Part shown: positions 1,647 to 15,946 of the stretch, in pieces
Numbering within the stretch: position 1 is the first letter of the stretch
How the letters are laid out: every line of letters begins with the position of its first letter
Assembly: GCA_017694415.1 (NCBI GenBank)
Contig: JADIMW010000068.1
Span: 1-61,565 of the forward strand
Source: Candidatus Caccoplasma merdipullorum
GTDB lineage: Bacteria > Bacteroidota > Bacteroidia > Bacteroidales > G3-4614
Direction: 5' to 3'
DNA: 61,565 nt
Translations under genes and position numbers: made by a program
Notes under the pieces: model-generated
The model's input: only the letters and a program-made list of their open reading frames with translations
Databases searched by the model: none
Told to the model about the DNA's origin: nothing

Positions 1647-1985
1647 TATGCTATGCGTTTAATTGTTATCTCGTTGTAGGTGGATGATACAGCGTATCGT
1701 TTGCCGGTATCGCCTGTTATGCAAAATGTCATGAAATATGGCAGACGTTGGGGGAAGCCATAGTGTCTGTCGAACTTGCAAATTGTTTATTTCAACTCGC
1801 ACATTTATTTTGCTCATATTTTTCAATTATATCTGTAGAATATAGGGTGCAACACGATATAGTTTAAACTTAATGACTAACATCAGCATATAGGTTACGG
1901 TTCAGTTTTCATAGTTAAAAATTTTATTTCGTCTGTATATTCTATCCCCTTTCACATATATGTGTAGTGTGTATCGAACTTTGCA
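1647..1985. other. AT-rich intergenic stretch without a recognisable gene
   Basis: No ORF with coding character is seen. The sequence around 1838-1853 (CTGTAGAATATAGGGTGC) resembles the TGTAGAATATAGGATGC stretch at about 2185 and 4815. It is therefore probably a further decayed piece of the repeats described below. Confidence 0.4.
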
Positions 1986-2040
1986 TTCGGCAAAATGGAC
2001 TTGAAAAAGTTTATTTTTTCTTTCAACTTTCACTATATTT

Positions 2041-2510
2041 GCAATGGAATCCAAATCCAAATAGGCCACCTCAGCGAGATTCGTTCGCTGTTGGTCTATG
2101 TCGGTTTGGATTTTTTCTTTGTCAGCATATTACTGCGTTTTTCCTGTTTCAGAATTTGGATTCTCAAAGTTTTTGCTTATATTTGTAGAATATAGGATGC
2201 GGCTCGGCATAATCAAATTTGAAAACTCTGTTTTCATTTGTTTCTGCTCTCGCCTTTCGCTATATTTGCAACGGAATCCAAATCCAAATAGGCCACCTCA
2301 GCGAGATTGGTTCGCTGTTGGTCTATGTCGGTTTGGATTTTTTCTTTGTCAGCATATTACTGCGTTTTTTCAGCTTCGGGATTCTCAAAGTTTTTTATTA
2401 TATTTGCGACATACTCCAAGTCGAGATATTCAACCTCAGCGAGAGTCTTTTGCTGTTTGTTTATCAAACCTTGGAGTTTTTCTTTGTCGGCATAGAGTAG
2501 TTCATATTTG
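2041..2510 (-). repeat. Degenerate tandem copies of a polyvalent-protein C-terminal coding segment
   Basis: Three head-to-tail copies begin near 2041, 2269 and 2406 (spacings 228 and 137 bp). Read on the minus strand, each encodes variants of YADKEKIQ..I..QR..LAEV.YLDLDS, the same peptide that ends the large ORF at 4860. The copies at 2041 and 2269 are almost identical in DNA (GGAATCCAAATCCAAATAGG shared). Stops such as CAGTAA within the copies show they no longer form one protein. This looks like a decayed tail produced by repeated recombination. Confidence 0.8.
2151..2270. repeat. Direct repeat, copy 1 (partner at 4781-4894)
   Basis: The stretch from GAATTTGGATTCTCAAAG through GGATGCGGCTCGGCATAATC to CTCGCCTTTCGCTATATTTG recurs almost base for base at 4781-4894. 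The high identity over about 115 bp, 2.6 kb apart in the same orientation, means a recent duplication. Recombination between the copies could delete the intervening ORF at 2537-4738. Confidence 0.85.
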
Positions 2511-2529
2511 AGCACCACTCCTTTGGAGA

Positions 2530-2760
2530 TTATTTACTATCTTTGATGTTGAAAGTTCTGTTCAAATCCGAAATATGCGTCGTTTTTGTATGATTTGCGT
2601 CGGTGAGAATAGGACTTTTTATTTTCCAGATTGTTAATGCGGCCATTCTTTCTGCCGTCCGCTTTTTGACTGTCTCGAATACGTTCGGGAAAAAACTTTT
2701 GCCAAATATTTCTTCCAATTCGGCCCGGTCTTTCGCAAGTGTTTCGGGAGATACCGGCTT
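2530..2760 (-). pseudogene. Out-of-frame polyvalent-protein fragment (LPD-type helix)
   Basis: The frame that ends at 2530 encodes PETLAKDRAELEEIFGKSFF and TVKKRTAERMA. This resembles the segment EREKIDRIFGKEYLDNVAKA found before the HEAVAH motif in the large ORF. It follows directly after the ART fragment but in a different frame, so it is not joined to it in translation. It is best read as a piece of an ancestral gene left by an illegitimate join. Confidence 0.6.
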
Positions 2761-4738
2761 TATTCCTGTCAAATGAGAGAAAGGACTCATTTGTTCCATG
2801 GTAAACCACCCTCGGCTCGCCGTTCTCGTCCACCACTTTCGACGCATCAGCTTGCAGGATTGAAACTAAACGCCTATCTTTGTACTCGGCAGAAGACGGT
2901 ACAGGTGCGCCCCCCGTTGATGTAAAGCCATTGGCAATCTCATAGAGATTGCCTTTTTCTATTTCAGTAAGGCTATGGTCATAATACCTCTTGCCTTGCT
3001 TTACCCCAATTGTTACTTTGACTGTGTAATCGACACCACCTATTTTCAGTCCACACACATAGTATCGGTAGCTGTCATACTTGCCGTTACCTTTCTCATT
3101 AGGGAGTTCATCTATAAATATGGCGTTCTCTATGAGCTGTGGCGTAACCGCAAGCGATTTCAGGTGTGCTTCGTTATCCATGCGGGAACGGATGTCTTCT
3201 GTGTTTTTTTCGGTTTCCGGGTTTGGATTCTCAAAGTTTTTTATTATATTTGATGCAGTTTTAAGTTCTTGAGAGGTTATTTCCTGCTGAACATTGGGTG
3301 ATGCTGAGGAGAACCACTCAAGAGCTTTCTTTTTATCAACCCACTGTAAACTATTGTTCTCATTTATGGGGCGAATTATGTTCTCTATACGCCGACCATG
3401 AACGGTAGTTACATCGTTGACCTCAATATAACGTCCTCCATCTTGTATTTCCGATGATAAATCAAACGCAACAAACACATTTCTTCCAATCTTGTCTTTC
3501 ATTTCTGACAGGATCGACAGCGATTTGTCATCCTTTTTAAACACGAATATAGGCTCTGAAATTTTTTGCGGCATATTGATTATTGAAGAAACTTCTACAT
3601 TGTGTTTTTTGTTTGCGCCCTTATTTACAACTCTTTGTCGCATCACTATCGGCAAATTTGGCAAGAATATGCTCATAACTCCATTTGGTAGGCCAAGGTG
3701 AAACATCTCGTTTTTACTCATTTTTCCTTGCTGATAACGTTCCAACTCCTCGTTAAATCGCCTATTGACCTCTTCGAGGTCGTTATCCATGCGGAAGCGT
3801 ATGTCTGCATTCTCCGACGAAAACGAGCCTGTGTTGTCCGTAGCAGACTTGATTATATTACCTAAATTTTCTACTAACCCCAATTTCGTAGCTGGAGTTA
3901 AAAGTATTTCTCCGTCAGCACCTCTATTTCCAGAATATACACCAACAACAATATTATAAGGCTGTTCTCCATAGAACAATTCGTAGTATTTGTCAATATT
4001 TGTATTTAGTTCAGATACTCTACCTACTACAGAAATACCCTGTTCAAATATCTGGTCTCTATAATTATAAGACCTTCCCCTTTCGTTTATGTCGCCATAT
4101 CTATATGCAACAACAATAGAAGGTATTATTCCTTTTCTAATTGAATTTATAAGTATTTCAATATAATCTTTTTGAGAAACTATACTTTCAAGTAAGTTGT
4201 ATGCTTTTTCTTCTTGATAGAATATAGATTCATTATCCCATTCCATCCCAGTTTCATTCTCAATTTCTGAAATCTTATTTACATAATTATTAGCCTTATT
4301 TATTGAAATATCAAGTCTTGTTATGGGATTTCTTTCTTTTATGTTTAAGTATAATCCATCTATCACCCTCGGCTCGCCGTTCTCATCCACAACTTTTGAT
4401 GAATTTGTTTGCAGAAGAGAAAGCAAACGCTTATCTTTGACAGCAGAAACAGCATCTTCCTTGTTGGCAAACCCCGTATTTATGGGGTCAATACTTTCAA
4501 GGAGGCTGTTTTTTTCTATCTCGGTCAGTGCATGGTCGTAATATGCTTCACCGTCTTTCACGCCAACAACCAGCTTGGCGGTATAGTCCACACTGCCCAT
4601 GCGCAATCCCAACACGTAGTAGCGGTAGCTGTCGAAGCCCGTCTTTTCCTTGGTGTTGGCCTCTTCGGTGATGAACACGGCATTTCCTATCATTTGCGGG
4701 ATGTAGGCCGCAGATTTGAGGTGCGCTTCGCTATCCAT
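2537..4738 (-). CDS. Polyvalent-protein ORF: LPD, unassigned domain, MuF-C-like, LPD, truncated ART
   Basis: This is a 733-residue mosaic. Residues 1-105 are an LPD-like domain (DSYRYYVLGLRMG) ending in KVVDENGEPRV. About 135-305 is a domain I do not recognise (SIVVAYRYGDINERG, GADGEILLTPATKLG). About 350-475 is MuF-C-like (PNLPIVMRQRVVNKG, KISEPIFVF). About 510-640 is a second LPD copy, again ending KVVDENGEPR and then VVYHGTNESFLSFD, the start of a polyvalent-type ADP-ribosyltransferase. The ART is cut after about 30 residues and the ORF ends in about 65 residues of shifted-frame sequence. There is no good start: the ATG lies inside the motif DIRFRMDS, and an in-frame precursor upstream is lost by an extra base near 4790. 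Most likely it is a fragment of a larger ancestral gene. Confidence 0.7.
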   Translation of the reverse strand: MDSEAHLKSAAYIPQMIGNAVFITEEANTKEKTGFDSYRYYVLGLRMGSVDYTAKLVVGVKDGEAYYDHALTEIEKNSLLESIDPINTGFANKEDAVSAVKDKRLLSLLQTNSSKVVDENGEPRVIDGLYLNIKERNPITRLDISINKANNYVNKISEIENETGMEWDNESIFYQEEKAYNLLESIVSQKDYIEILINSIRKGIIPSIVVAYRYGDINERGRSYNYRDQIFEQGISVVGRVSELNTNIDKYYELFYGEQPYNIVVGVYSGNRGADGEILLTPATKLGLVENLGNIIKSATDNTGSFSSENADIRFRMDNDLEEVNRRFNEELERYQQGKMSKNEMFHLGLPNGVMSIFLPNLPIVMRQRVVNKGANKKHNVEVSSIINMPQKISEPIFVFKKDDKSLSILSEMKDKIGRNVFVAFDLSSEIQDGGRYIEVNDVTTVHGRRIENIIRPINENNSLQWVDKKKALEWFSSASPNVQQEITSQELKTASNIIKNFENPNPETEKNTEDIRSRMDNEAHLKSLAVTPQLIENAIFIDELPNEKGNGKYDSYRYYVCGLKIGGVDYTVKVTIGVKQGKRYYDHSLTEIEKGNLYEIANGFTSTGGAPVPSSAEYKDRRLVSILQADASKVVDENGEPRVVYHGTNESFLSFDRNKAGISRNTCERPGRIGRNIWQKFFPERIRDSQKADGRKNGRINNLENKKSYSHRRKSYKNDAYFGFEQNFQHQR
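3830..4345 (-). other. Unassigned domain within the polyvalent ORF
   Basis: Residues roughly 135-305 of the 2537-4738 ORF have a clear alpha/beta pattern with conserved-looking stretches (GIIPSIVVAYRYGD, DQIFEQGISVVGRV, YNIVVGVYSG, GADGEILLTPATKL). They sit where the sister module carries the ART domain, directly after KVVDENGEPRV. By position it may be an alternative effector. I cannot assign it to a named family. Confidence 0.45.
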
Positions 4739-4780
4739 GCGGAAACGGATGTCTTCTGTGTTTTTTTCGGTTTCAAAATT

Positions 4781-4894
4781 TGGATTCTCAAAAGTTTTTG
4801 CTTATATATTGTAGAATATAGGATGCGGCTCGGCATAATCAAATTTGAAAACTCTGTTTTCATTTGTTTCTGCTCTCGCCTTTCGCTATATTTG
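4781..4894. repeat. Direct repeat, copy 2 (partner at 2151-2270)
   Basis: Near-identical to 2151-2270. In this copy the run in TTCTCAAAAG (4790-4793) has four A where the copies near 2165 and 3235 have three. The change shifts the minus-strand frame of the KNFENPN linker. The repeat covers the stop region of the large ORF at 4860. Confidence 0.85.
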
Positions 4895-7800
4895 CAATGG
4901 AATCCAAGTCAAGATATTCAACCTCAGCGAGAGTCTTTCGCTGTTTGTTTATCAACTCTTGGATTTTTTCTTTGTCGGCATACAATAATTTATCTTGGTT
5001 AATCCAGTTCAACCATTCTGCATTATTCTTTGGAAATATACCTCGTATATCGGAAACTATTAACTCTTTACGTTTTTGATTAAAATGTACTCCAACAAGA
5101 TAATTTTTTCCGTTTTGTTCTATTCCCAATATTAGATTTTGAGATTTTTGAGGATTTCCATACTTAAATATGGCAATAGGTTTTTGTATTGTATAAATAA
5201 GGTTTCTTAAATCCGAAATATTAAACGGGTGTTTTGCTGCTTCCGAATGTTCTTTTAGCATCTTTGAGGACATTTCTATCGGCAGGTCGGGAATGCCTGT
5301 ACTGCGCAATATTTTTCCCGGCCGTCCCAACTTGTATATGTGCCCTTGTGGCAGGGTTCCGCTTATCTGCTGCTCCAACTCCTCGTTGAATCTTCTATTG
5401 ACCTCTTCGAGGTCGTTATCCATGCGGAAACGGATGTCGATCTCGCGTGAGGCATCGAGTACTTTTTTCCATTTTTCGTAGGATTTTGTTTCTTTTTCTA
5501 TTACCTTTGCAAGCGGAAGGGCATCCTCTCTTGAAGATGTGAGGCCTCCCAGATCATTAGAACGGCTTAATGCGTCAGCATTGAGCCGTTCTACGTTTGT
5601 AACCTCGTAGGAGTATTGTTTATTACCCTCTACTGCAGACCTGCTTTCTTTCATTGTGGTTTTAACTCTATACACAATGCCGTCTATTTTAATAGCACCA
5701 TAAAAACGATGAATTAATGTATTGGCATTATAACCGTTCTCTGGTCTGCGTTCTTCATCTGTTCCTTTCTTGTAATCAGGATGTTCTTCTACTTCTATGC
5801 TATTGGCGATAACCTCGTCTAATCGGTTAAGAACTGCAATATGTATGCCTATATTGGTGCTTTTATCTGTTGCTTTTTTGCTAACAGACTTTTCTATACT
5901 TTCTCCACTAATAGTATAGTCAAACGCTGTTCCATAGTTGTCATAATACAAAGTCTTGCCTTGATATTTCTTTCTTGCATCTTCTTCGGCTTGTTTTATG
6001 GCCTCTACGACAGAACCTTTATACTTGTGTTTTGGTATGTTTATCACTTTTAGATTTTCTTCGGCAAGGTTAGGCATTACTGTGCCTTTGTTTTCTACGG
6101 CCCTGTTTACTCTTTCCGAAAATGTTTTGTTGTTGTCGCCGAGCCGGTACAACGATTCGGCCTCGGATTTTATGTGTGTTTCCTCGGCGGCTTTGCGTAA
6201 CCTGGCCAGCAGTGCGCTATTGTCTAACACCTTAACGGCATCGGCTTCCTGCATGTTTTTGTAAGATTGAGCCAGCAGGTGGCGTATGTCGGCATCGTTT
6301 ATGTCGAGGTCTATGCCGATACTGCGCAGAAACTCCCTTATTGCCGATATTATCCGCTGCGGGATGCTCTGCCGTACTCCTCCCTCGGCAAGGCGGGCCA
6401 TATATTCGTCCGCTATTATGCGACGCAGTTCTGCCTCTGCGGTATTCGGATATATCTTTTTGTATGTATCTTCATATGCTTTCTGCCGTTTTTTCGGCAT
6501 GGACCGGTAAACGGCATCGCAGAGTGCCCCGAAAGATTCCTCCCCGAGCAGGGCCCGCAACCCTTTGTGTGCAACTGCCTCGTGCAGGATTGTGGCTTTT
6601 ACGTCCTCCGCCGTTGAATGCATGGAGAGGTTTATGTATACTTTTCCGTTGCCGGGTGTATACCAGCCTTTTGCCCGCATGCGCCGAATGGCTTCCTGCG
6701 GGGTCTTGCCTTGCAGGTCCTCTTCGGGTATGTCTTTCAGGTCGGAGACAAGCACAATGTCCGGAGAGGCGGCAAGTTCTGACCGCAGCTCTCTTGCTGC
6801 CTTGCTTACCACGGCCTTTCTCTCTGCCTTTCGCTTTTCTACTGCCTTGGCTACGTTGTCGAGATACTCCTTGCCGAATATCCTGTCTATCTTCTCCCGC
6901 TCCTTTGCCCGGATTTCGGCAAGTTCTTCTTCCGTCATGTCGATAATATCCCTGCTCCCTGCTTCCTCTCCTGTACGATGCACGGGCGGCTCTTGTACGT
7001 TTGAGGATTCTTTGCTATATTTGACTGTTAAATTAGGAGCAGGGCTGTTTGGGGAACTCACCTCATAGGAATTCCGCTTTGACGGTAGATACAGTTCTGC
7101 TCCGTTTCTTATCTTATTTAAAAGATTATTATTCGTTTTTATGTGGACAGAACTGATATAGTTTTCTAATTCTCCGTCTTTATTTACCACTGTTACATTA
7201 TAAGTCTCTGTTCCATCGTACTTTTTGTACAGTTTTACGTACAAGCGAGAAGCATCGGTGTCTTTTATAACAAAGTCGGGATTTTCCAATGTAGCCCGTA
7301 TTGTTCCCGATACATTTTTTCTACTGTTCTTTATTATCTTGTTGTACGTCTCGCGTCTTATCTGAACAAATTCCCCTAATATGGTTCTGACAGGTGAACG
7401 ATATTCTACAATGAATTCCGATATATTTTCTATTTTTGGGGGCAAAGTTTCTTCTGTGCCTTTATTTAATATTTTCCGAAGCACTTTTTCAGCTTCTTTG
7501 CCCGACAACCATTGTCTGTCTTTTTCCGGTATATGTTCTTTTAATTGTTTGTCCGAATACTCCAAAAAAGCATCTCTGTACAATGCAATGTTGCCTGTCT
7601 CTTCATCGACACGTTCCTGTATAACATCAAAAAGATTATCCAAATCTTTTCCGAAAGTTTCCAATTCTTCCTTTGTCGGATATACAAAACCTCTCAATGC
7701 TTGAGGTGTTTTTTTAAACTCCTCGTATGTCATAAGTCCTTTCTGTTCTTTTCCTTTGTGCAGGTTAAATTCGGAGTCAAAAAGTTGATATATTTCGTAT

Positions 7801-10800
7801 TGCATACGTGCATATCTTTCCTGCGCATCTCCTGTTCCTTCGGTCAAAAAGTGGTTATATGCGTTATGCTGCGATAATTGTTTTGCAACCCATTCCTCAA
7901 ATACCCGGGCTGTTTCTTCTTCTATCGCTCCCCAATAAGTACCTCTTTTTCGTGAGCGGGAATGATAGTCTGATTTTTTGATATTGTCAACAATCTGGTT
8001 AAAAGCATCGCGCATCGCCGAGCGTAACTTAATTTTCTTGTTTGCCGTGGCAAATCCTGCCGGCACATCAAACTGCCTGGCAAAATAATTGTCCAGTGCA
8101 TGCCACCACTCGTGCGCAAGCGCCCCAACTCCTCTTGTCTTTGTAAGATTAATAACGACTTCTTTTGTTTCGTAATGCGCATTTGCCTTTCCGCTACCGC
8201 GCGAACCGAAAGCTATACCCAACTCTCCATTAAGGCTTAACGCTCGCGGGGATACATTTAATATGCGAGATAGGTCCATGAAGGAATCGTAAGCATTATT
8301 AAGCGCAGCTTGTCTATCTTCTTGATTGGTCCAGTTGCCAAACTGTACTCCTCTAAAACCAAATTTTGTTGCAAACTCTTCGGCAGACACATTTTTACCT
8401 TGTCTGTAATCTTCTCCTATTCTTGTATTTATATTTCCGGCAAAATAAACAAACCTTTGTCTCCTCTCTTTAACCTCTTTGGCTTTCTTTTCCCAATCGT
8501 CTTTGTTCTTTTCCAATAAAGACAATGCTTCTTCCTTTGTTTCGATACCTTCTGCAAAATATAACGGCATGGTATCAAAAGGATTATTTTTGGATGCGCT
8601 ATCAGATATTATAATACCGTATTTAAATTTCTTATTTTCATAATCATAATATTTTATTATTTCGAGCAACCCTTTTTTATTGTCTTTTGTTTCTGCGTTT
8701 TTCTGTGCAATAGCTTCGTTTGCAGCTTCATTCAGTTTTTGATAGTCATCTTTAAAAGACGCTTCTGCTGATTCTTTACTATCGTATTCTATTCCCAGTT
8801 CTAAATGTTCTCCTGTTATAGGATTGGTAAAAACAGCTTCATACCTTTTATAATAACCATTATGTGTTTTGTCCTCAACAGGCTCTGATACATCTGCTTT
8901 ATTATTTTCTTTAGTTATCTTCTCCCTGTACGCTTCTGCCTCTTCTTTGGTATCAAATTTTAATATTTTTAGTGGCGATTTCCGAGCATCTGGACTTTCA
9001 AACACAAGCCAACCGTCTGATATAAATATAGGTTCTCTCCCTATGTAATCAAAAGTTTCGCGAGGATGTTCTGAAACTTCTATATCATTGTATAGTTTTG
9101 TAAGATATGTTATCTGGCTAACAACGTTATCAAAAGTCTTTGCCTTCTGTAAATAATATAGTTTTTCTCCGTTTGGTGTTATTAAATAATAATAATCATT
9201 AGATGTATTTGGAATAGCGGCAACAACAGGGAATGATATATCATACCTGTCTCCTAAGTTTATTTGCCTCAATACTTCGTAAAATAAAGCTATCTGATTT
9301 ATAGGATAAGCGGTGCCGTTAAATGTTTTCCCGGGATTCCATTGTTCCAACTTTTGCTGGTATGCTTTTACTTGCTCCTCTCCATAAGTCCTTACAGATA
9401 AGGCACGTTTAATTATCGCATCACGTTCTGTTTCTTCTGCGTTAAAGAGTTCTTGAAGTATTTGTATCCCTGAAAATGCCTCTTCTGCCCAACTCTCAAC
9501 TCCGGTTTTTCCTGTCTCAAGTTTTGCTATCCGGTCTTTTCTTGTCCCTGCTTTTGGCTTCTTACGCGACAAAGTTGCAGCCATAACTGCTTCTGCAAAA
9601 TATACGTCTTTTTCTCGTAATGCGCCCGATTCAAGGGCTTTTTTCAAGTCGGGACGCTTAAATGCTTTAGAAAACGGGAGTGATATAAGGCTCTGCAAGG
9701 TGGTATTTTCCACGGTTCTTGCAATATCCCTCAATATGTCTTTACGCGCTCCAGCTATTTGTTCTCCGTAATCTTCTATACGTCCGCCAGGCGTTTCCGT
9801 TGTCTGCTCTGCCGCTGCCGGCTGTGCTGTGTCGGCTTCCGGTGTATTTGCTGCATTGACTTTTGAAAGTTCCGATGCAAGTAGCGCATCTCGCTCCTGC
9901 ATTGCAGCATCGTAGTCCTCTATTGTGGGTACTGCGTCTAAATCTGCTTTTGCATCAGCATTATAATTTGTTATTGTTTCCTGCGGTTCACCCACGTAGT
10001 ACATTGTGGCGACATAGAGAGGAACTTTATTTGGGTGTTCTTCCGCCCATGCTGCAAATTCTTCGGGTGCATATTGTGGATTGAAAGGTATTTTGTTTGC
10101 AGGTTTAAAGCCGAACATGGAATACATGTTGGCTAAATTCTTATCTCCATCTACTACATAACAGTCAAGTTTGTTACCACCTAATGCAACAGCCATAGGT
10201 ATTAATTTCTGCATACGGTAATCGCCTTTTACCGCACTGAACAGAGAGACAATATCGCCCGTAGGGGTTATGGCTACACCTGAAAGCCCGTCGTCTGTTA
10301 TCAATAATGTACAGTCTGCGTACTCATCTACGCTGTGCACATCTACCATCCACCCGTTGGGATTGCTTTTCTTTGCCTCGCTTATTGCTGCATGGAATTC
10401 TTGAGGTGTAGATAAGCGAACCTTTTGTGAGGTGTGCTTTATCCCTTTATTCGTTAGGAGTTCGCTTATCTGTTGGTCTGTTTTCTCTATCTTTACATCA
10501 TGGCCAATTCTGCTGCTTCTGCCGGTGTTTGAATATTTGGATTCCAGTCCGGGCGTTCCCAATACTTCCGGTTTACTAATACTGACCTCACCTCTATTTC
10601 CGTCCACCTTTCGTCGCAGCATTTCGCTATCTCCTTGCGAAACTCTGCTATCCACTGCTGCTGCTCCGGCGTCAGTTTGGACATCATCTCTTTGTTCTCC
10701 TTCACCAACTCCTCTATTGTCATCTCCAACGAGTTCTTTCCTTTCATAACTTGTTTCTTTTTCTGTAAAGTTATTATTATCTGAAGTATCCTGCAAGTTT

Positions 10801-13586
10801 TTAGCGGTGTTTTTCACGCCTCTTTCTCTTGGTCTTCTGCGTCCTCCTTTTCTTTCTCCTCTTTCTCTTTCTTGTCCTCCTGTGTCTGCTGCTCCTCTAT
10901 TTCCTGCATCATCTCCACGAACGCTTTGTATACCAGATTTAACTTTTGAGTTTCCCAGTCTACTTTGGGTGTCTGCTGCTGCTTGTCCGGTGTTTCCATA
11001 TTCTTCTATTAATTCGTTTAATATTTCTTTTTTTGTTTTTATTCTACCCGCAAATATATCAATTTGTCCGGATGCTGCATGCTCTGCTGCCGTATTATAT
11101 TTATTAACAAACGATTTAAAGTTGTTCTGACCTTTAGTCAATGCAACTGCAATTATTTGTGTTGCAGTGTTGTATATGTCTGCCGGGTTTGCATCAAACA
11201 AATTAGTCTGCGATATGTAGTCTGTAATCGGCATATTTGCTCTATCGGCTGCATAAATAAATTCAATAGCCTTGTTAATTTCATCAGACAGTGAGTAATT
11301 CTCTCCATTTTGTCCTTTTTTCAGCCTACTGTTATTCAAAAGCGGCATTATTGATTTTATTATCGCTGCTCTTATATTCTTCATCTGGGAGATAAGACGT
11401 ACACTCTGTTCGTTTAATATCTTGCCCACAAGCAATGTTTCGAAAAATTCTTTTCCTTGCGCTGACAGATTGTTCCCATCCATTAATTCGGCCATTTCGT
11501 TGCTGTTTATTACACCGTCTGCCTGCAATATTCGCATTATCTGTGCTATTGTTGCTTTGTCGGAGTATATTTCCGATAACGTATCTTTTTCATCTATCAG
11601 AGCAGCTATTTTTTCTATTGTGGTATCCTTTACTGTTTTACCGGCTTTTACTGCTTTTTCTGTCGGCGATATTGTCTTTTTATCTTCGGCATTGAATTTT
11701 GCAAATGTCTCGGCGTTTAACGGTACGTTTTCTGATACTTCCAATACCAGCCGGGGATGCTGATACCCGGATATTTGCTCTGCCGTAAAACCGTACCTCC
11801 CGGCATGGTATTTCAGATAAGACAAATATTCCGTATCGGTCCCTTGGCTTGCGGCAATCTGTCCGGACATGGTACGTCCATTTCCGGATAATACTATTCC
11901 TTGATTTGTTACTATGACAGGTGTCTGTATTGCGCGTGCATCATAATTTGCTGCGTTCTGCTCTACAATAGTCTGTGCGGACTTATCTGCCTGATAGTCT
12001 CTGTCGTTTATTGTATTGCCGTTCTCGTCGGTCGGGAATCCTTCTGATTTTTGATAACCATTGTTTACGTCGTGGCTTGGCGTTATGGCGTCTGCTTCTA
12101 CAATGACGTAACGACCGTATATTCTTTCTCCGTTGGGCAATATGTATGTATCGGTATTGCCGTATGTACGATTGGATGTTTGATACTTGCCCGTTATATT
12201 TTCTCCGACTTGTTGTGTAACTTGTGGAGTCTTTTTTTGAGATGCACCAATCCGTCTTGCCTGCTGCGCCGTCCAGTAATCATAAGCCTTTTGTGCGGCA
12301 GCTTTCTCGGCAGATATAGCCTGTTGCTCGGCTTTGCGCTTTGCAAACTCTGTTGACTTGGGTTTTGCCTTTTCTGCTTTTTCTGTGGCTTTCTTCGCCT
12401 CTTTTATCTTGTCGGCAATGAAAGCGTCGGCGGTGTCGCCCAGCTCAGCTATGGCCGCGTCAAACTGCTCTTCGGTCATTTCGTACCATAGAGGCTCTCC
12501 GGCTTCATCGACAGGATACTGCTGTTGCTCTTCCTGCTCATTTTTTTCTCTTCTCGCTCTTGTGATTGGATTTTTTTCGCTACCTTTGGTGTAAGAAGAA
12601 TCGGTTTGTGGTACATCCGTACTCCCGATAACAGGGACAGATACATTCTCTTGCGATTTACGAGTATTATTGTCCGACGTAGGAACAAGGTCCGGTCGCC
12701 CGTCATTTTGGGTCTCGATTAAGTACCTTTCAGAATCGAGGGACAATTTATTGTTGAGATGCAGGATTATTCCATTCTGCATCTCTTTTCTCGCAACCTT
12801 TCTGTCAACTTCATGACTACTTATTGACACTTCCATACCGTCTTTCCTAACAGTAACTGTCTCAAAGTGTACATAACGACTTCCGTCAGATTTGATAAAA
12901 GTCTTTAGAAACAGATATTTAGTATTTCTTTCCGCGTTGGGAGACTGAGCATCCTTTTCTATAATAACATCGGGATTAGATAGGGTTGGTGCAACCATGC
13001 CAAAAGATTTCTCTCGTCCTTTAGCAAAGAATTTCGTAATTTGATTGTCTCCCATTTTAACTTGTCCGACAGGAGTTGTTATTGAATTGTTTTCGCCAAA
13101 TATCTCTGCCCAATTTTCAGGAGTAAGCGACAATTCTGGCGCGACTTCGGCTGTTTCTTCCATTTGTGAGAGTAAATCTGCAACTCCTTCGTTGGTTAGA
13201 CGGATACCATTTTTACGTATTCCTCTACCCTGTTCGGCTGTCTGCTCTGTTGTATTTACGTCTTGCCGGTTGAGCAATGTCTTGACGTTATTCCAATAGT
13301 CGTATTCTTGTTGTGCCGCCGTTTGTTCTGCCCTTATTGCTTCTCTCTCGGCCTTTATATCCGACAGAATTGCTATTTTTATTATCCGCTTCTTGTATAT
13401 CTGGGGATTCTTTGCTATCTTTGGCATGTACCATTTGGGATACAGTTCTGTTTGGGGCAATATTGGTATCGGGATTCCCTTGTGCCCGCAAAGTATCATC
13501 AGCAACCGATTGCTGATTCTGCACTTCGGAAGCAGACCAAACGGTTTTTTTTTCTTGTGAATATCTTTTACGAAATACACCTGCAC
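4860..13586 (-). CDS. Giant polyvalent protein (nuclease, ParB/DdrB, GNAT-like, peptidase and MuF-C-like modules)
   Basis: A 2908-codon ORF whose coding part starts near residue 77, because the first residues are shifted-frame sequence. Approximate order: a BECR-type nuclease-like domain (100-290); a DdrB/ParB-like domain (490-860; ITPSHDVN, IVLSGNGRTMSGQ); a Gly/Arg-rich linker; a GNAT-like domain (1030-1230; GDIVSLFSA, MYSMFGFKP); LPD1-like with a zincin motif HEWWH at about 1825; a second BECR-like copy (2060-2180); an LPD segment and HEAVAHKGLR at about 2335; an LPD3-like domain (2490-2680); the junction DIRFRMDN; and a MuF-C-like domain (2750-2870). Such polyvalent proteins are typical of phages and conjugative elements and are thought to enter the recipient cell with the DNA. 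No transfer or virion genes are nearby. The domain names are by eye; the overall class is confident. Confidence 0.8.
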   Translation of the reverse strand: MQVYFVKDIHKKKKPFGLLPKCRISNRLLMILCGHKGIPIPILPQTELYPKWYMPKIAKNPQIYKKRIIKIAILSDIKAEREAIRAEQTAAQQEYDYWNNVKTLLNRQDVNTTEQTAEQGRGIRKNGIRLTNEGVADLLSQMEETAEVAPELSLTPENWAEIFGENNSITTPVGQVKMGDNQITKFFAKGREKSFGMVAPTLSNPDVIIEKDAQSPNAERNTKYLFLKTFIKSDGSRYVHFETVTVRKDGMEVSISSHEVDRKVARKEMQNGIILHLNNKLSLDSERYLIETQNDGRPDLVPTSDNNTRKSQENVSVPVIGSTDVPQTDSSYTKGSEKNPITRARREKNEQEEQQQYPVDEAGEPLWYEMTEEQFDAAIAELGDTADAFIADKIKEAKKATEKAEKAKPKSTEFAKRKAEQQAISAEKAAAQKAYDYWTAQQARRIGASQKKTPQVTQQVGENITGKYQTSNRTYGNTDTYILPNGERIYGRYVIVEADAITPSHDVNNGYQKSEGFPTDENGNTINDRDYQADKSAQTIVEQNAANYDARAIQTPVIVTNQGIVLSGNGRTMSGQIAASQGTDTEYLSYLKYHAGRYGFTAEQISGYQHPRLVLEVSENVPLNAETFAKFNAEDKKTISPTEKAVKAGKTVKDTTIEKIAALIDEKDTLSEIYSDKATIAQIMRILQADGVINSNEMAELMDGNNLSAQGKEFFETLLVGKILNEQSVRLISQMKNIRAAIIKSIMPLLNNSRLKKGQNGENYSLSDEINKAIEFIYAADRANMPITDYISQTNLFDANPADIYNTATQIIAVALTKGQNNFKSFVNKYNTAAEHAASGQIDIFAGRIKTKKEILNELIEEYGNTGQAAADTQSRLGNSKVKSGIQSVRGDDAGNRGAADTGGQERERGERKGGRRRPRERGVKNTAKNLQDTSDNNNFTEKETSYERKELVGDDNRGVGEGEQRDDVQTDAGAAAVDSRVSQGDSEMLRRKVDGNRGEVSISKPEVLGTPGLESKYSNTGRSSRIGHDVKIEKTDQQISELLTNKGIKHTSQKVRLSTPQEFHAAISEAKKSNPNGWMVDVHSVDEYADCTLLITDDGLSGVAITPTGDIVSLFSAVKGDYRMQKLIPMAVALGGNKLDCYVVDGDKNLANMYSMFGFKPANKIPFNPQYAPEEFAAWAEEHPNKVPLYVATMYYVGEPQETITNYNADAKADLDAVPTIEDYDAAMQERDALLASELSKVNAANTPEADTAQPAAAEQTTETPGGRIEDYGEQIAGARKDILRDIARTVENTTLQSLISLPFSKAFKRPDLKKALESGALREKDVYFAEAVMAATLSRKKPKAGTRKDRIAKLETGKTGVESWAEEAFSGIQILQELFNAEETERDAIIKRALSVRTYGEEQVKAYQQKLEQWNPGKTFNGTAYPINQIALFYEVLRQINLGDRYDISFPVVAAIPNTSNDYYYLITPNGEKLYYLQKAKTFDNVVSQITYLTKLYNDIEVSEHPRETFDYIGREPIFISDGWLVFESPDARKSPLKILKFDTKEEAEAYREKITKENNKADVSEPVEDKTHNGYYKRYEAVFTNPITGEHLELGIEYDSKESAEASFKDDYQKLNEAANEAIAQKNAETKDNKKGLLEIIKYYDYENKKFKYGIIISDSASKNNPFDTMPLYFAEGIETKEEALSLLEKNKDDWEKKAKEVKERRQRFVYFAGNINTRIGEDYRQGKNVSAEEFATKFGFRGVQFGNWTNQEDRQAALNNAYDSFMDLSRILNVSPRALSLNGELGIAFGSRGSGKANAHYETKEVVINLTKTRGVGALAHEWWHALDNYFARQFDVPAGFATANKKIKLRSAMRDAFNQIVDNIKKSDYHSRSRKRGTYWGAIEEETARVFEEWVAKQLSQHNAYNHFLTEGTGDAQERYARMQYEIYQLFDSEFNLHKGKEQKGLMTYEEFKKTPQALRGFVYPTKEELETFGKDLDNLFDVIQERVDEETGNIALYRDAFLEYSDKQLKEHIPEKDRQWLSGKEAEKVLRKILNKGTEETLPPKIENISEFIVEYRSPVRTILGEFVQIRRETYNKIIKNSRKNVSGTIRATLENPDFVIKDTDASRLYVKLYKKYDGTETYNVTVVNKDGELENYISSVHIKTNNNLLNKIRNGAELYLPSKRNSYEVSSPNSPAPNLTVKYSKESSNVQEPPVHRTGEEAGSRDIIDMTEEELAEIRAKEREKIDRIFGKEYLDNVAKAVEKRKAERKAVVSKAARELRSELAASPDIVLVSDLKDIPEEDLQGKTPQEAIRRMRAKGWYTPGNGKVYINLSMHSTAEDVKATILHEAVAHKGLRALLGEESFGALCDAVYRSMPKKRQKAYEDTYKKIYPNTAEAELRRIIADEYMARLAEGGVRQSIPQRIISAIREFLRSIGIDLDINDADIRHLLAQSYKNMQEADAVKVLDNSALLARLRKAAEETHIKSEAESLYRLGDNNKTFSERVNRAVENKGTVMPNLAEENLKVINIPKHKYKGSVVEAIKQAEEDARKKYQGKTLYYDNYGTAFDYTISGESIEKSVSKKATDKSTNIGIHIAVLNRLDEVIANSIEVEEHPDYKKGTDEERRPENGYNANTLIHRFYGAIKIDGIVYRVKTTMKESRSAVEGNKQYSYEVTNVERLNADALSRSNDLGGLTSSREDALPLAKVIEKETKSYEKWKKVLDASREIDIRFRMDNDLEEVNRRFNEELEQQISGTLPQGHIYKLGRPGKILRSTGIPDLPIEMSSKMLKEHSEAAKHPFNISDLRNLIYTIQKPIAIFKYGNPQKSQNLILGIEQNGKNYLVGVHFNQKRKELIVSDIRGIFPKNNAEWLNWINQDKLLYADKEKIQELINKQRKTLAEVEYLDLDSIANIAKGESRNK

Positions 13587-14886
13587 TGTTTACGTTCCAA
13601 TAACTGCCGTCTTGAGATAACTCAACAAATAATGTGTTGTTATATTTGTCTGATACTTCTATTATATATGTTTTATTACTATTTCTAACTTTTCCTTCTT
13701 TTATGTCAGTATAATTTTGGGCTACATTTTCCACAAATTCTATAATACTCTTAAATCCAGATTGTTTTATTTGTTGTCCATGTCTTGATTCAATATGTAA
13801 TAATCCATAATCTTTTGTTCCTTCGCTTAACTTTATTGGTGCAGGTATAAGTCCTGTTTCTTCATTTATCTCTCCGAATATGGTTGTTCCGTCAGAAGCT
13901 AAAACAAACGGACACCCGTTTTCATCTAATTCGTTAGATAGTCGATAGGGTATTCCCGTTTGCTTTTGTTGGGATTCGTGAATTGACAAATTGCTATTTT
14001 TATTATCCGCTTCTTGTATATCTGGGGATTCTTTACTATCTTTGGAGTTGAAAGACATGACGAACGGAAGAGCAGAAAGGGCTGCTGCCGCATCTTTTGA
14101 TGTCAGTATGAGGAATTGCCCGCCCTCGCGTTCGGCTTGTCTTTTTAGTTTTTCAATTCCTTTAGCATCTATTCTTCTCCAACCTACAATTTCTACATTA
14201 TCTTTACCCTTGTTTACTTCTAATACAGTAATTGAATTCTTATCAGCAGTTTGTACTGCTATCCAATAATTAGGTCGTTTTATAGGTTGTGTTCGCCCGA
14301 TAAAAGTTGTTATATATAAAGATTTCTTCAATATATCCCTACTTTGCTCAGGCGTTAATTCCGGATGTGCTATTCTGTTCTTTTCAAATATATTCTTCTT
14401 TATAATTATAGGTTTACTATCAGCACCTATAGCATTGGAAATATTCTGCTGTAATTGTGGTAATTCAACGTTGCGAGTAGGAGTAATAAAGTCCTCATTT
14501 GTCAGCTCGTTTAAGTCTTCCAACCTGTCTATTACTAATTTTCCATTAGAATCCACAGGATTGCCTTGACTATCATAACTTCCCGTATTTAATCTTTTAC
14601 TTTCTTTAACTGTACTTCTGTATAGATCTACTCTTTCTTGTTCTATACTTCGTCCTCCTTGTCCTCCTTGTCCTCCGGTGTCTGTTCCTCTATTTCCTGC
14701 ATCATCTGGCGAAAGGCCATTGCCAACATCTGGGCTTTCTGGGTTTTCTCGTCCGGTTTGGGTGTCAGCTGCTGTTTGTCCGGTGTTTCCATAGGTTCCT
14801 GTTATTTCTTTTAATATTTCTTCTTTTATCTTTCCGTATATGGTTGTTCCGTCAGAAGCTAAAAACAAACGGACGCCCGTTTTCAT
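13288..14886 (-). CDS. Polyvalent-protein fragment with two BECR-like nuclease domains
   Basis: A 532-codon ORF. Residues about 145-280 (RIAHPELTPEQSRDILKK, GGQFLILTSKDAAAAL) and about 330-450 (GLLHIESRHGQQIKQSGF, YWNVNSAGVFRKRY) look like two phage-type Barnase/EndoU/ColicinE5/RelE (BECR) nuclease domains. The linker KDSKESPDIQEADNKNSN occurs after each. Both ends are broken. The annotated ATG lies in shifted frame, because an extra A (run at 14861-14865, five against four in the copy at 13901) separates it from the in-frame peptide TGIPYR.SNELDENG. The last 14 or so residues run out of frame into the next ORF. It is probably the 5' end of the giant gene. Confidence 0.65.
   Translation of the reverse strand: MKTGVRLFLASDGTTIYGKIKEEILKEITGTYGNTGQTAADTQTGRENPESPDVGNGLSPDDAGNRGTDTGGQGGQGGRSIEQERVDLYRSTVKESKRLNTGSYDSQGNPVDSNGKLVIDRLEDLNELTNEDFITPTRNVELPQLQQNISNAIGADSKPIIIKKNIFEKNRIAHPELTPEQSRDILKKSLYITTFIGRTQPIKRPNYWIAVQTADKNSITVLEVNKGKDNVEIVGWRRIDAKGIEKLKRQAEREGGQFLILTSKDAAAALSALPFVMSFNSKDSKESPDIQEADNKNSNLSIHESQQKQTGIPYRLSNELDENGCPFVLASDGTTIFGEINEETGLIPAPIKLSEGTKDYGLLHIESRHGQQIKQSGFKSIIEFVENVAQNYTDIKEGKVRNSNKTYIIEVSDKYNNTLFVELSQDGSYWNVNSAGVFRKRYSQEKKTVWSASEVQNQQSVADDTLRAQGNPDTNIAPNRTVSQMVHAKDSKESPDIQEADNKNSNSVGYKGRERSNKGRTNGGTTRIRLLE
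13372..13425. repeat. Linker repeat, copy 1
   Basis: TTGCTATTTTTATTATCCGC and the following roughly 35 bases recur at 13992-14046 with one base different. On the minus strand they encode KDSKESPDIQEADNKNSN. The frame break between the 13288-14886 and 4860-13586 ORFs falls exactly at this repeat, which marks it as a recombination join. Confidence 0.85.
13992..14046. repeat. Linker repeat, copy 2
   Basis: Partner of 13372-13425. It encodes the same KDSKESPDIQEADNKNSN linker between the two BECR-like domains. Confidence 0.85.
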
Positions 14887-14899
14887 CTAATTCGTTAGA

Positions 14900-15109
14900 T
14901 TGTCGATAGGGTATTCCCGTTTGCTTTTGTTTGGATTCGTGAATTGACAAATTTTGCTTTCGGAATAGTTGGTTTGGGTGCATCCGTGCAAACCTCGGGA
15001 TCGACCCTGCTGTCGGGGATTATAAGGATTGGCCGCCAATTACGCGCATGCACTGTGGCTTGAACAATGGCGATTGCGGAATCTGAACAGGATGTTAGTC
15101 GCGATGTTC
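14900..15109 (-). other. Open frame remnant at the right edge of the accessory locus
   Basis: The minus strand is open without an ATG from about 15109 to 14900 (AIAIVQATVHARNWRPILII, then IPDSRVDPEVCTDAPKP). It overlaps the end of the next small gene. In another frame the same DNA carries IHESKQKQTGIPYRQSNELD, the start of the polyvalent module. The former may be a relic of the gene the element landed in, or chance. I do not recognise it. Confidence 0.25.
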
Positions 15110-15397: not shown

Positions 15398-15946
15398 CTA
15401 CACAAAGTCGCACAGGTACAGGTGCGTATCGTCGTCTATCATTTCGGGTGTTATTTTCGGGTATCGCCGGTTGTGGCGTTTCGGCCACGGCAGTAACCCG
15501 TCTTTGGGATATACGGGATAATTTTCTACTACGGTGTACTTCGACATGTCTGCCGTACCCCGGCGATATATGTTCCATGTTTTCTTGTTATCGACCGTAT
15601 AATGGATATGTTCTGCTACTGTAGGCAACGACAGCAGGGTATCGATATATTCGCGGAAAGTATCGACATCGCCTTTTTCCAATATTATGCGCCCTACTGC
15701 TCCGGGTTTCAACAGTACTTCCTGCAACAACTGGCAATCGCCTTTTTCATATTTTATTTTCCCGTGTCCGTAATATGACGGCAATATGGCGTTTTTTTCC
15801 ATACAGACTCGTATGTCGAAGTACCTTACTCCTGCGGCATATTGTTCTTCGGGGGTTTTATCTTGACACTTGCTTGTAAAGTTTATCAGTTTCATCCACC
15901 ATTTATGCGGTTTCAGATACGTCATCGTGTTATGGCTTCCTGTCAT
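15398..15946 (-). CDS. PI-PLC-like phosphodiesterase
   Basis: A 182-residue protein matching the X domain of phosphatidylinositol-specific phospholipase C-like enzymes. GSHNTMTY holds the first catalytic His, YFDIRV the Asp-Arg pair, and YYGHGK is a candidate second His. The bacterial enzymes cleave phosphatidylinositol or GPI head groups and are usually about 300 residues, so this is a short form. The start is right against GSHNT and no signal peptide is seen. It would be cytoplasmic unless the true start lies upstream. Substrate unknown. Confidence 0.75.
   Translation of the reverse strand: MTGSHNTMTYLKPHKWWMKLINFTSKCQDKTPEEQYAAGVRYFDIRVCMEKNAILPSYYGHGKIKYEKGDCQLLQEVLLKPGAVGRIILEKGDVDTFREYIDTLLSLPTVAEHIHYTVDNKKTWNIYRRGTADMSKYTVVENYPVYPKDGLLPWPKRHNRRYPKITPEMIDDDTHLYLCDFV

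Follow-up and report, generated by a model that had tools for sequence, protein, structure and literature searches.

The window analysed here, 61,565 nucleotides of Candidatus Caccoplasma merdipullorum DNA, is a complete contig from a genome of 2.1 Mb and carries on its minus strand, between 15.0 and 1.9 kb, a polyvalent locus set between housekeeping genes (Table 1). The tRNA-Pro and aspS genes lie on one side and genes for a nitroreductase, a ferredoxin-type protein and a TonB receptor on the other, with metabolic genes also present in the flanks. Rather than a single intact gene, the locus comprises an ORF of 532 aa (ORF1), a main ORF of 2908 aa, a frame of 754 codons and three partial gene tails; the 3' end of ORF1 runs out of frame within the beginning of the main ORF. 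Pfam profiles detect LPD13 in ORF1, PBECR2 (two stretches), ddrB-ParB, LPD5, LPD1, LPD3 and MuF_C in the main ORF, and LPD3 (twice), MuF_C and a truncated ART-PolyVal in the 754-codon frame. The main ORF alone unites six Pfam polyvalent families, so that several disparate effector, LPD and peptidase-like domains reside in one polypeptide, and two HExxH motifs are visible in its sequence (HEWWH at ~8114 and HEAVAH at ~6584). Among the flanking genes, none was recognised as a phage or conjugation gene (virion, T4SS or relaxase), no att-type direct repeats of at least 12 nt flank the locus, and the PADLOC anti-phage defence models produced no match at 0.01.

Two small ORFs beside the locus differ between the window and G007, the congeneric genome (contig CASFRS010000004.1) that also carries the locus. 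Between the locus and tRNA-Pro, the window contains a 69-codon MerR/HTH_17 excisionase-like ORF (1658-1452) that is absent from the same place in G007 and is a possible trace of an integrated element. The 182-aa ORF at 15398-15946, which an earlier note on this DNA described as PI-PLC-like, was not seen at the corresponding place in G007, and the label finds no backing in Pfam, PHROGs or NCBIfam, where the ORF matches no family.

Table 1 Genes, modules and linkers of the polyvalent locus, with positions in the window
Feature	Position	Strand	Basis and remarks
PBECR leader copy a (QTGIPYR.SNELDENG.PFVLASDGTTI)	14817..14953	-	94.9% over 137 nt to 13857-13992
ORF1 (upstream), 532 aa	13288..14886	-	PBECR leader, ParB-tail fragment, LPD13, PBECR3-like module
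ParB-tail fragment (YGNTGQTAADTQ...DDAGNRG), fused behind PBECR leader	14653..14833	-	DNA similarity
LPD13 domain	14134..14547	-	PF18825, 1e-46; 49% identical to solitary locus L038
PBECR leader copy b	13857..13992	-	Repeat scan, BLASTN
PBECR3-like module	13541..13975	-	63% aa identity to G007 homologue; DNA matches
Linker KDSKESPDIQEADNKNSN copy 2	13363..13424	-	96.8% over 62 nt; copy 1 at 13985-14045
Main polyvalent ORF, 2908 aa stop to stop	4860..13586	-	ORF list; start codon uncertain
PBECR2 domain	12771..13103	-	PF18810, 1e-16 for whole protein, two stretches; no G007 counterpart here
ddrB-like ParB domain	11745..12134	-	PF18763, 4.5e-9
Insertion of ~1 kb, window genome only	9838..10856	-	GNAT-like by eye; absent in G007; no Pfam match
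Shared block with LPD5, LPD1 and HEWWH zincin-type motif	7575..9837	-	94.7% to G007
PBECR2-type module	7026..7466	-	PF18810, 7.1e-9; sharp borders; PBECR3-like module in its place in G007
Shared block: RIFGK region with HEAVAH, LPD3, linker, MuF_C1	4889..7023	-	97.0% to G007
Linker DIRFRMDNDLEEVNRRFNEELE copy 1	5374..5438	-	DNA repeat; precedes MuF_C1
Gene-end unit: MuF_C tail, stop, spacer, FENPN linker	4762..4982	-	89% over 221 nt to 2356-2138
754-codon frame	2537..4801	-	ORF list
Detached distal modules: LPD3, KVVDENGEPRV-following domain, MuF_C2, LPD3, truncated ART	2537..4738	-	94.7% to in-frame G007 modules
Domain after KVVDENGEPRV	3806..4384	-	No Pfam or PHROGs match; otherwise found only in G007
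Linker DIRFRMDNDLEEVNRRFNEELE copy 2	3741..3805	-	DNA repeat; precedes MuF_C2; step in synonymous divergence here
Truncated ART-PolyVal start, fused out of frame to RIFGK-module fragment	2540..2806	-	PF18760 positions 1-53 of 140
Three partial copies of MuF_C tail/gene-end unit	1905..2533	-	Repeat scan, alignment

The PBECR3 profile matched ORF1 at 0.0052, which is below the curated cut-off. At the start of this ORF, the PBECR leader is joined to the ParB tail at a short similar stretch (GATAAA.GAAGAAA vs AACAAAAGAAGAAA), and the ParB-tail fragment is 75.5% identical to window positions 11040-10857 and 81% to the ParB tail of G007. The 1-kb inserted module has a weak sequence hit in the PDB, inositol-pentakisphosphate 2-kinase (9e-5 over the full sequence, 6e-4 over the aligned part); the hit is confined to one short ungapped stretch, and this assignment was set aside. 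The domain that follows the first KVVDENGEPRV appears ART-like by eye (DGEILLTPATKL) but matches no Pfam or PHROGs family and was not accepted as an ART; its AF2 model, with a pLDDT of 35, is not usable. An ART does follow the second KVVDENGEPRV, as the earlier note had proposed, but only as a truncated domain that then runs out of frame. Searches of IMG/VR viral contigs revealed no close relatives of the main protein, of the KVVDENGEPRV-following domain or of the 1-kb inserted module. MuF_C (PF18819) recurs inside the polyvalent protein and the MuF N-domain was not found in the locus; nor did Pfam, NCBIfam or PHROGs scans of the locus detect a delivery domain.

The recurrent peptides that had drawn attention to this region are real: every one was found on the minus strand within the range given. 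They include KDSKESPDIQEADNKNSN (14043 and 13422), SNELDENG.PFV (14899 and 13938), YGNTGQ.AADTQ (14793 and 11000), DLEEVNRRFNEELE (5414 and 3781), KVVDENGEPRV (4396 and 2839), [RE]IFGK..NV (6884 and 2712) and DIR[FS]RMD[NS], present four times; LAEV.YLDL[DE] likewise occurs in four copies, one of which reads LDLE instead of the LDLD originally reported for all. The self-comparison at the DNA level that the earlier note had called for (BLASTN) yielded 16 direct repeat pairs in the locus at E<1e-4 (among them pairs of 137 nt with 95%, 62 nt with 97%, 221 nt with 89% and 65 nt with 92% identity) and none in overlapping 13.9-kb control chunks from 17-61 kb of the window, which contained inverted pairs only; the excess of repeats in the locus is far above chance. 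A first repeat scan had delineated 17 families, and the longest exact repeats in the locus reach ~89 nt. The two copies of the PBECR leader differ by a 1-nt frameshift in copy a (TTTTT vs TTTT in copy b). Two of the shared motifs are widespread. KVVDENGEP is present in 19 of the compared polyvalent loci, which span several phyla; VYHG (ART) is the most usual continuation, but many copies continue with other residues. Like DIRF/Y, it is known from such loci in Bacteroidota, Verrucomicrobiota, Spirochaetota and others. Therefore, repetition of these two motifs at the amino acid level alone is no proof of recent duplication.

The FENPN linker deserves a separate remark. On the plus strand, its copy at 2138-2185 holds TTTG-N19-TATATTTG, which we take to fit the Bacteroidales promoter consensus, possibly by chance; its direction opposes that of the gene. 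Related copies are located at 2359-2406, 3205-3252 and 4762-4809.

Comparison with G007, which involves two close genomes that are both apparently metagenome bins, shows the same locus, again flanked by the nitroreductase gene and tRNA-Pro/aspS, in the form of one ORF of 3081 codons. Five blocks are common to the two loci (90-98.5% DNA identity), and none of the junctions between these blocks has the same content in both; the junction alignments show sharp borders. In the window, a PBECR2 insertion follows the N-terminal block and the 1-kb insertion follows the ParB block. Further on, the window has a PBECR2-type module and G007 a PBECR3-like module at the same place; the window homologue of the latter is found in the upstream ORF instead of the middle of the main ORF. 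Ahead of the common KVVDENGEPRV-following domain each genome has a different LPD3-type module, and at the 3' end the LPD3 and truncated ART of the window face another C-terminus in G007. In G007 the reading frame continues into the distal modules; in the window they lie behind a stop and spacer, where the gene-end unit parts them from the main ORF and recurs downstream of them (221 nt, 89%). The two orthologous loci thus have rearranged domain content, and the comparison revealed neither of the outcomes that the earlier note had named as refuting module shuffling, one module order common to the relatives or one conserved long gene.

The 5' end of the G007 locus also includes a frame-broken fragment, and in neither genome is it clear at which codon the main ORF starts. 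A 133-nt piece encoding part of the N-terminal coil is repeated in G007 directly behind the terminator of the nitroreductase gene (L021 4081-4213 and 4626-4758, 97.7% identical); this is a 5' counterpart of the detached pieces. In the genus members G001-G006, no copy of the locus is present at aspS/tRNA-Pro and other upstream genes occupy the place, so that there is no clean empty site.

Synonymous divergence in the shared blocks (dS 0.04-0.33) is far below that of the flanking genes (1.28 for aspS, 1.07 for the nitroreductase, 1.42 and 2.36 for two more), which implies that the locus passed between lineages, or entered both, after the split of the species; relative to its flanking genes, the locus has spread horizontally. 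Within the shared blocks omega is 0.16-0.43, and in those of the main ORF no nonsense differences were seen compared with 39.8 expected under neutrality. The blocks have accordingly been constrained at least through most of the divergence, and possibly were already constrained before capture.

Along the blocks, synonymous divergence is strongly heterogeneous (chi2 276.9, df 39, p 1.3e-37). Across the linker DIRFRMDNDLEEVNRRFNEELE at 3805-3741, synonymous differences rise from 1/125 to 25/114 (Fisher 4e-8). Each genome has two copies of this linker, ahead of MuF_C1 and MuF_C2, and within its 65 nt the informative sites group the copies by genome (5:0, five sites that may stem from two or three events only) as opposed to the adjoining MuF_C body, where orthologues group together (0:211; Fisher 2.7e-10). 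This is the pattern expected of gene conversion or crossover between linker copies. A patch inside the ParB block (window 11636-11277) has a synonymous divergence of 0.64-0.67 between lower neighbours (0.04-0.30) and represents an intragenic replacement without a recognised linker.

Collectively, these observations make it probable that the locus is a large polyvalent protein gene of phage type that was captured by the chromosome, stands there alone and evolves as modules are exchanged at linkers. The swapping and duplication at short linkers proposed in the earlier note are supported by the different content of G007, the divergence step and the homogenised linker; KVVDENGEP and DIRF, which it had counted among the signs, are ordinary motifs. 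A somewhat unlikely alternative is that the locus is what remains, in decay, of a polyvalent gene from a phage or conjugative element, and that tandem and illegitimate duplications accumulated in a pseudogene with no current function or re-use of modules. The frame breaks at 14865 and about 13380, the truncated ART, the three tail fragments, the frame-broken 5' fragment of G007 and the lack of mobile-element genes nearby would all fit such decay; however, a frame of 2908 open codons, the low omega, the complete lack of about 40 expected nonsense differences and the in-frame fusion of the distal modules in G007 speak against it. Because selection may predate capture, decay of the ends and function of the core can both hold.

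The wide distribution of KVVDENGEP and DIRF/Y would be accounted for if this were simply a long conserved gene whose domains had been duplicated internally long ago, its repeats being the normal border motifs of LPD3, ART and MuF_C, but near-identical DNA repeats within a genome, the homogenised linker and the other module content of the sister species render this explanation highly improbable. Equally little probability attaches to an assembly artefact, that is, to related polyvalent genes of several strains or elements joined at short repeats during metagenome assembly. Given the nature of both genomes and the exact repeats of up to ~89 nt, misjoins by a short-k assembler may affect individual joins, above all 4982-4762/2356-2138; nevertheless, both loci are anchored in host genes on each side, most junctions are without long exact repeats, the step at 3805-3741 lies in a 65-nt repeat that is only 92% identical, and the two assemblies agree over 2-kb blocks. 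It is also very unlikely that convergent selection, rather than gene conversion, made the linker copies alike in each genome: four of the five linker sites do cluster in two adjacent groups of codons and alter the encoded residues (EEVNRR vs EAINKR), but the remaining one is synonymous (GAG/GAA) and the flanking synonymous divergence steps at the same place.

Some features of the locus recur in relatives elsewhere. In another Bacteroidales locus, L039, five MuF_C stretches are present and copies of an 84-nt linker between repeated MuF_C modules are 96% identical; the long ORF of L047 also contains linker repeats at the DNA level, and L038 has two short repeat pairs. No such DNA-level linker repeats were detected in six other relatives examined (L024, L120, L121, L050, L048 and L123). 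In L125 the modules are small separate ORFs: LPD3 and two adjacent MuF_C ORFs (11028-14117) are located between an ORF matching SSB and an ssb gene that appears intact, an arrangement suggestive of insertion at a duplicated ssb. Phage-borne relatives adjoin portal or terminase genes, which supports a phage origin of the locus.

Large polyvalent proteins were described from phages and conjugative elements, together with their capture by hosts, for which a role in countering incoming elements was proposed (Iyer et al. 2017, PMC5512222). The window locus resembles them in combining PBECR, ddrB-ParB, MuF_C, ART-PolyVal, LPD1/3/5/13 and HExxH modules, most of them in one very long polypeptide, and differs in that no virion or transfer genes stand beside it; since host-captured members outside a virion or T4SS context are included in the same study, the missing context is no bar to membership. 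Among the published cases, Helicobacter jhp1044 comprises orthologous proteins in which PBECR, ddrB-ParB and LPD3 are duplicated and rearranged in as many as 50 combinations of domains (Iyer et al. 2017, PMC5512222); jhp1044 belongs to Helicobacter (pro)phages, whereas the window locus is a solitary Bacteroidales chromosomal gene with repeated linkers and detached distal modules. The kinase-containing locus of Verrucomicrobium spinosum likewise has a main gene and nearby smaller ORFs of the same domain types; these were proposed as recombining cassettes (Iyer et al. 2017, PMC5512222), whereas here the same modules are detached in one species and fused in the other.

Two toxin systems offer more distant parallels. 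Recombination from orphan to main gene has been demonstrated for Salmonella rhs (PMC3967940), where, as in the window, detached 3' coding pieces lie downstream of the main gene with identity that permits fusion. Rhs has one long homology (522 bp, 95%), a single C-terminal junction and immunity genes (PMC3967940), in contrast to the many short linkers (about 60-220 nt) and several junctions of the window, in which no immunity gene was seen; in the ORF list, no separate ORF stands out between the modules. MuF polymorphic toxins of temperate phages are also phage-borne modular proteins with effector domains, but combine an N-terminal MuF with a single C-terminal toxin (PMC5576092), unlike the internal, recurrent MuF_C of the window. 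The locus shares with polymorphic toxins the presence of detached downstream cassettes, represented by the 754-codon frame (whose modules are fused in G007) and the three tail copies. Its layout is not that of a conserved N-terminal delivery region followed by a variable C-terminal toxin: variation is found at several internal junctions and at both ends.

In the mechanism that we favour for such a captured gene, short stretches of conserved DNA at the borders of modules, on either side of MuF_C and of PBECR and ahead of ART-type domains, would serve as homology patches. Homologous recombination or gene conversion, presumably of the RecA type, among the copies within one locus and with related loci that arrive from outside would insert, replace, move and detach modules, and the retained blocks would remain under purifying selection throughout. 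The downstream pieces might be re-used, and the HExxH modules might release processed domains. The domain families and the proposal of Iyer et al. (2017) suggest that the protein or its processed domains (putative RNases, ART and ParB nuclease) may act on incoming elements or rival cells. A more far-reaching version, which we consider rather unlikely, is that the locus is a programmable effector array of the host, with linkers kept alike by gene conversion, modules fused, moved and detached, a silent downstream reserve, and passage of the whole between species.

Mosaic behaviour has already been reported for this class of proteins, and recombination has been published as a possibility (Iyer et al. 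2017, PMC5512222), with the mosaicism inferred from domain diagrams and cassette recombination only proposed. What the congeneric pair newly provides is direct evidence that modules are exchanged at linkers and become detached, which makes this behaviour visible unusually directly. With both loci anchored at the same place, the low dS, sharp borders, linker step and homogenised copies constitute direct sequence evidence that names the recombining sites, so that the mechanism can be tested in strains. The findings support the view that hosts retain such genes outside phages under selection.
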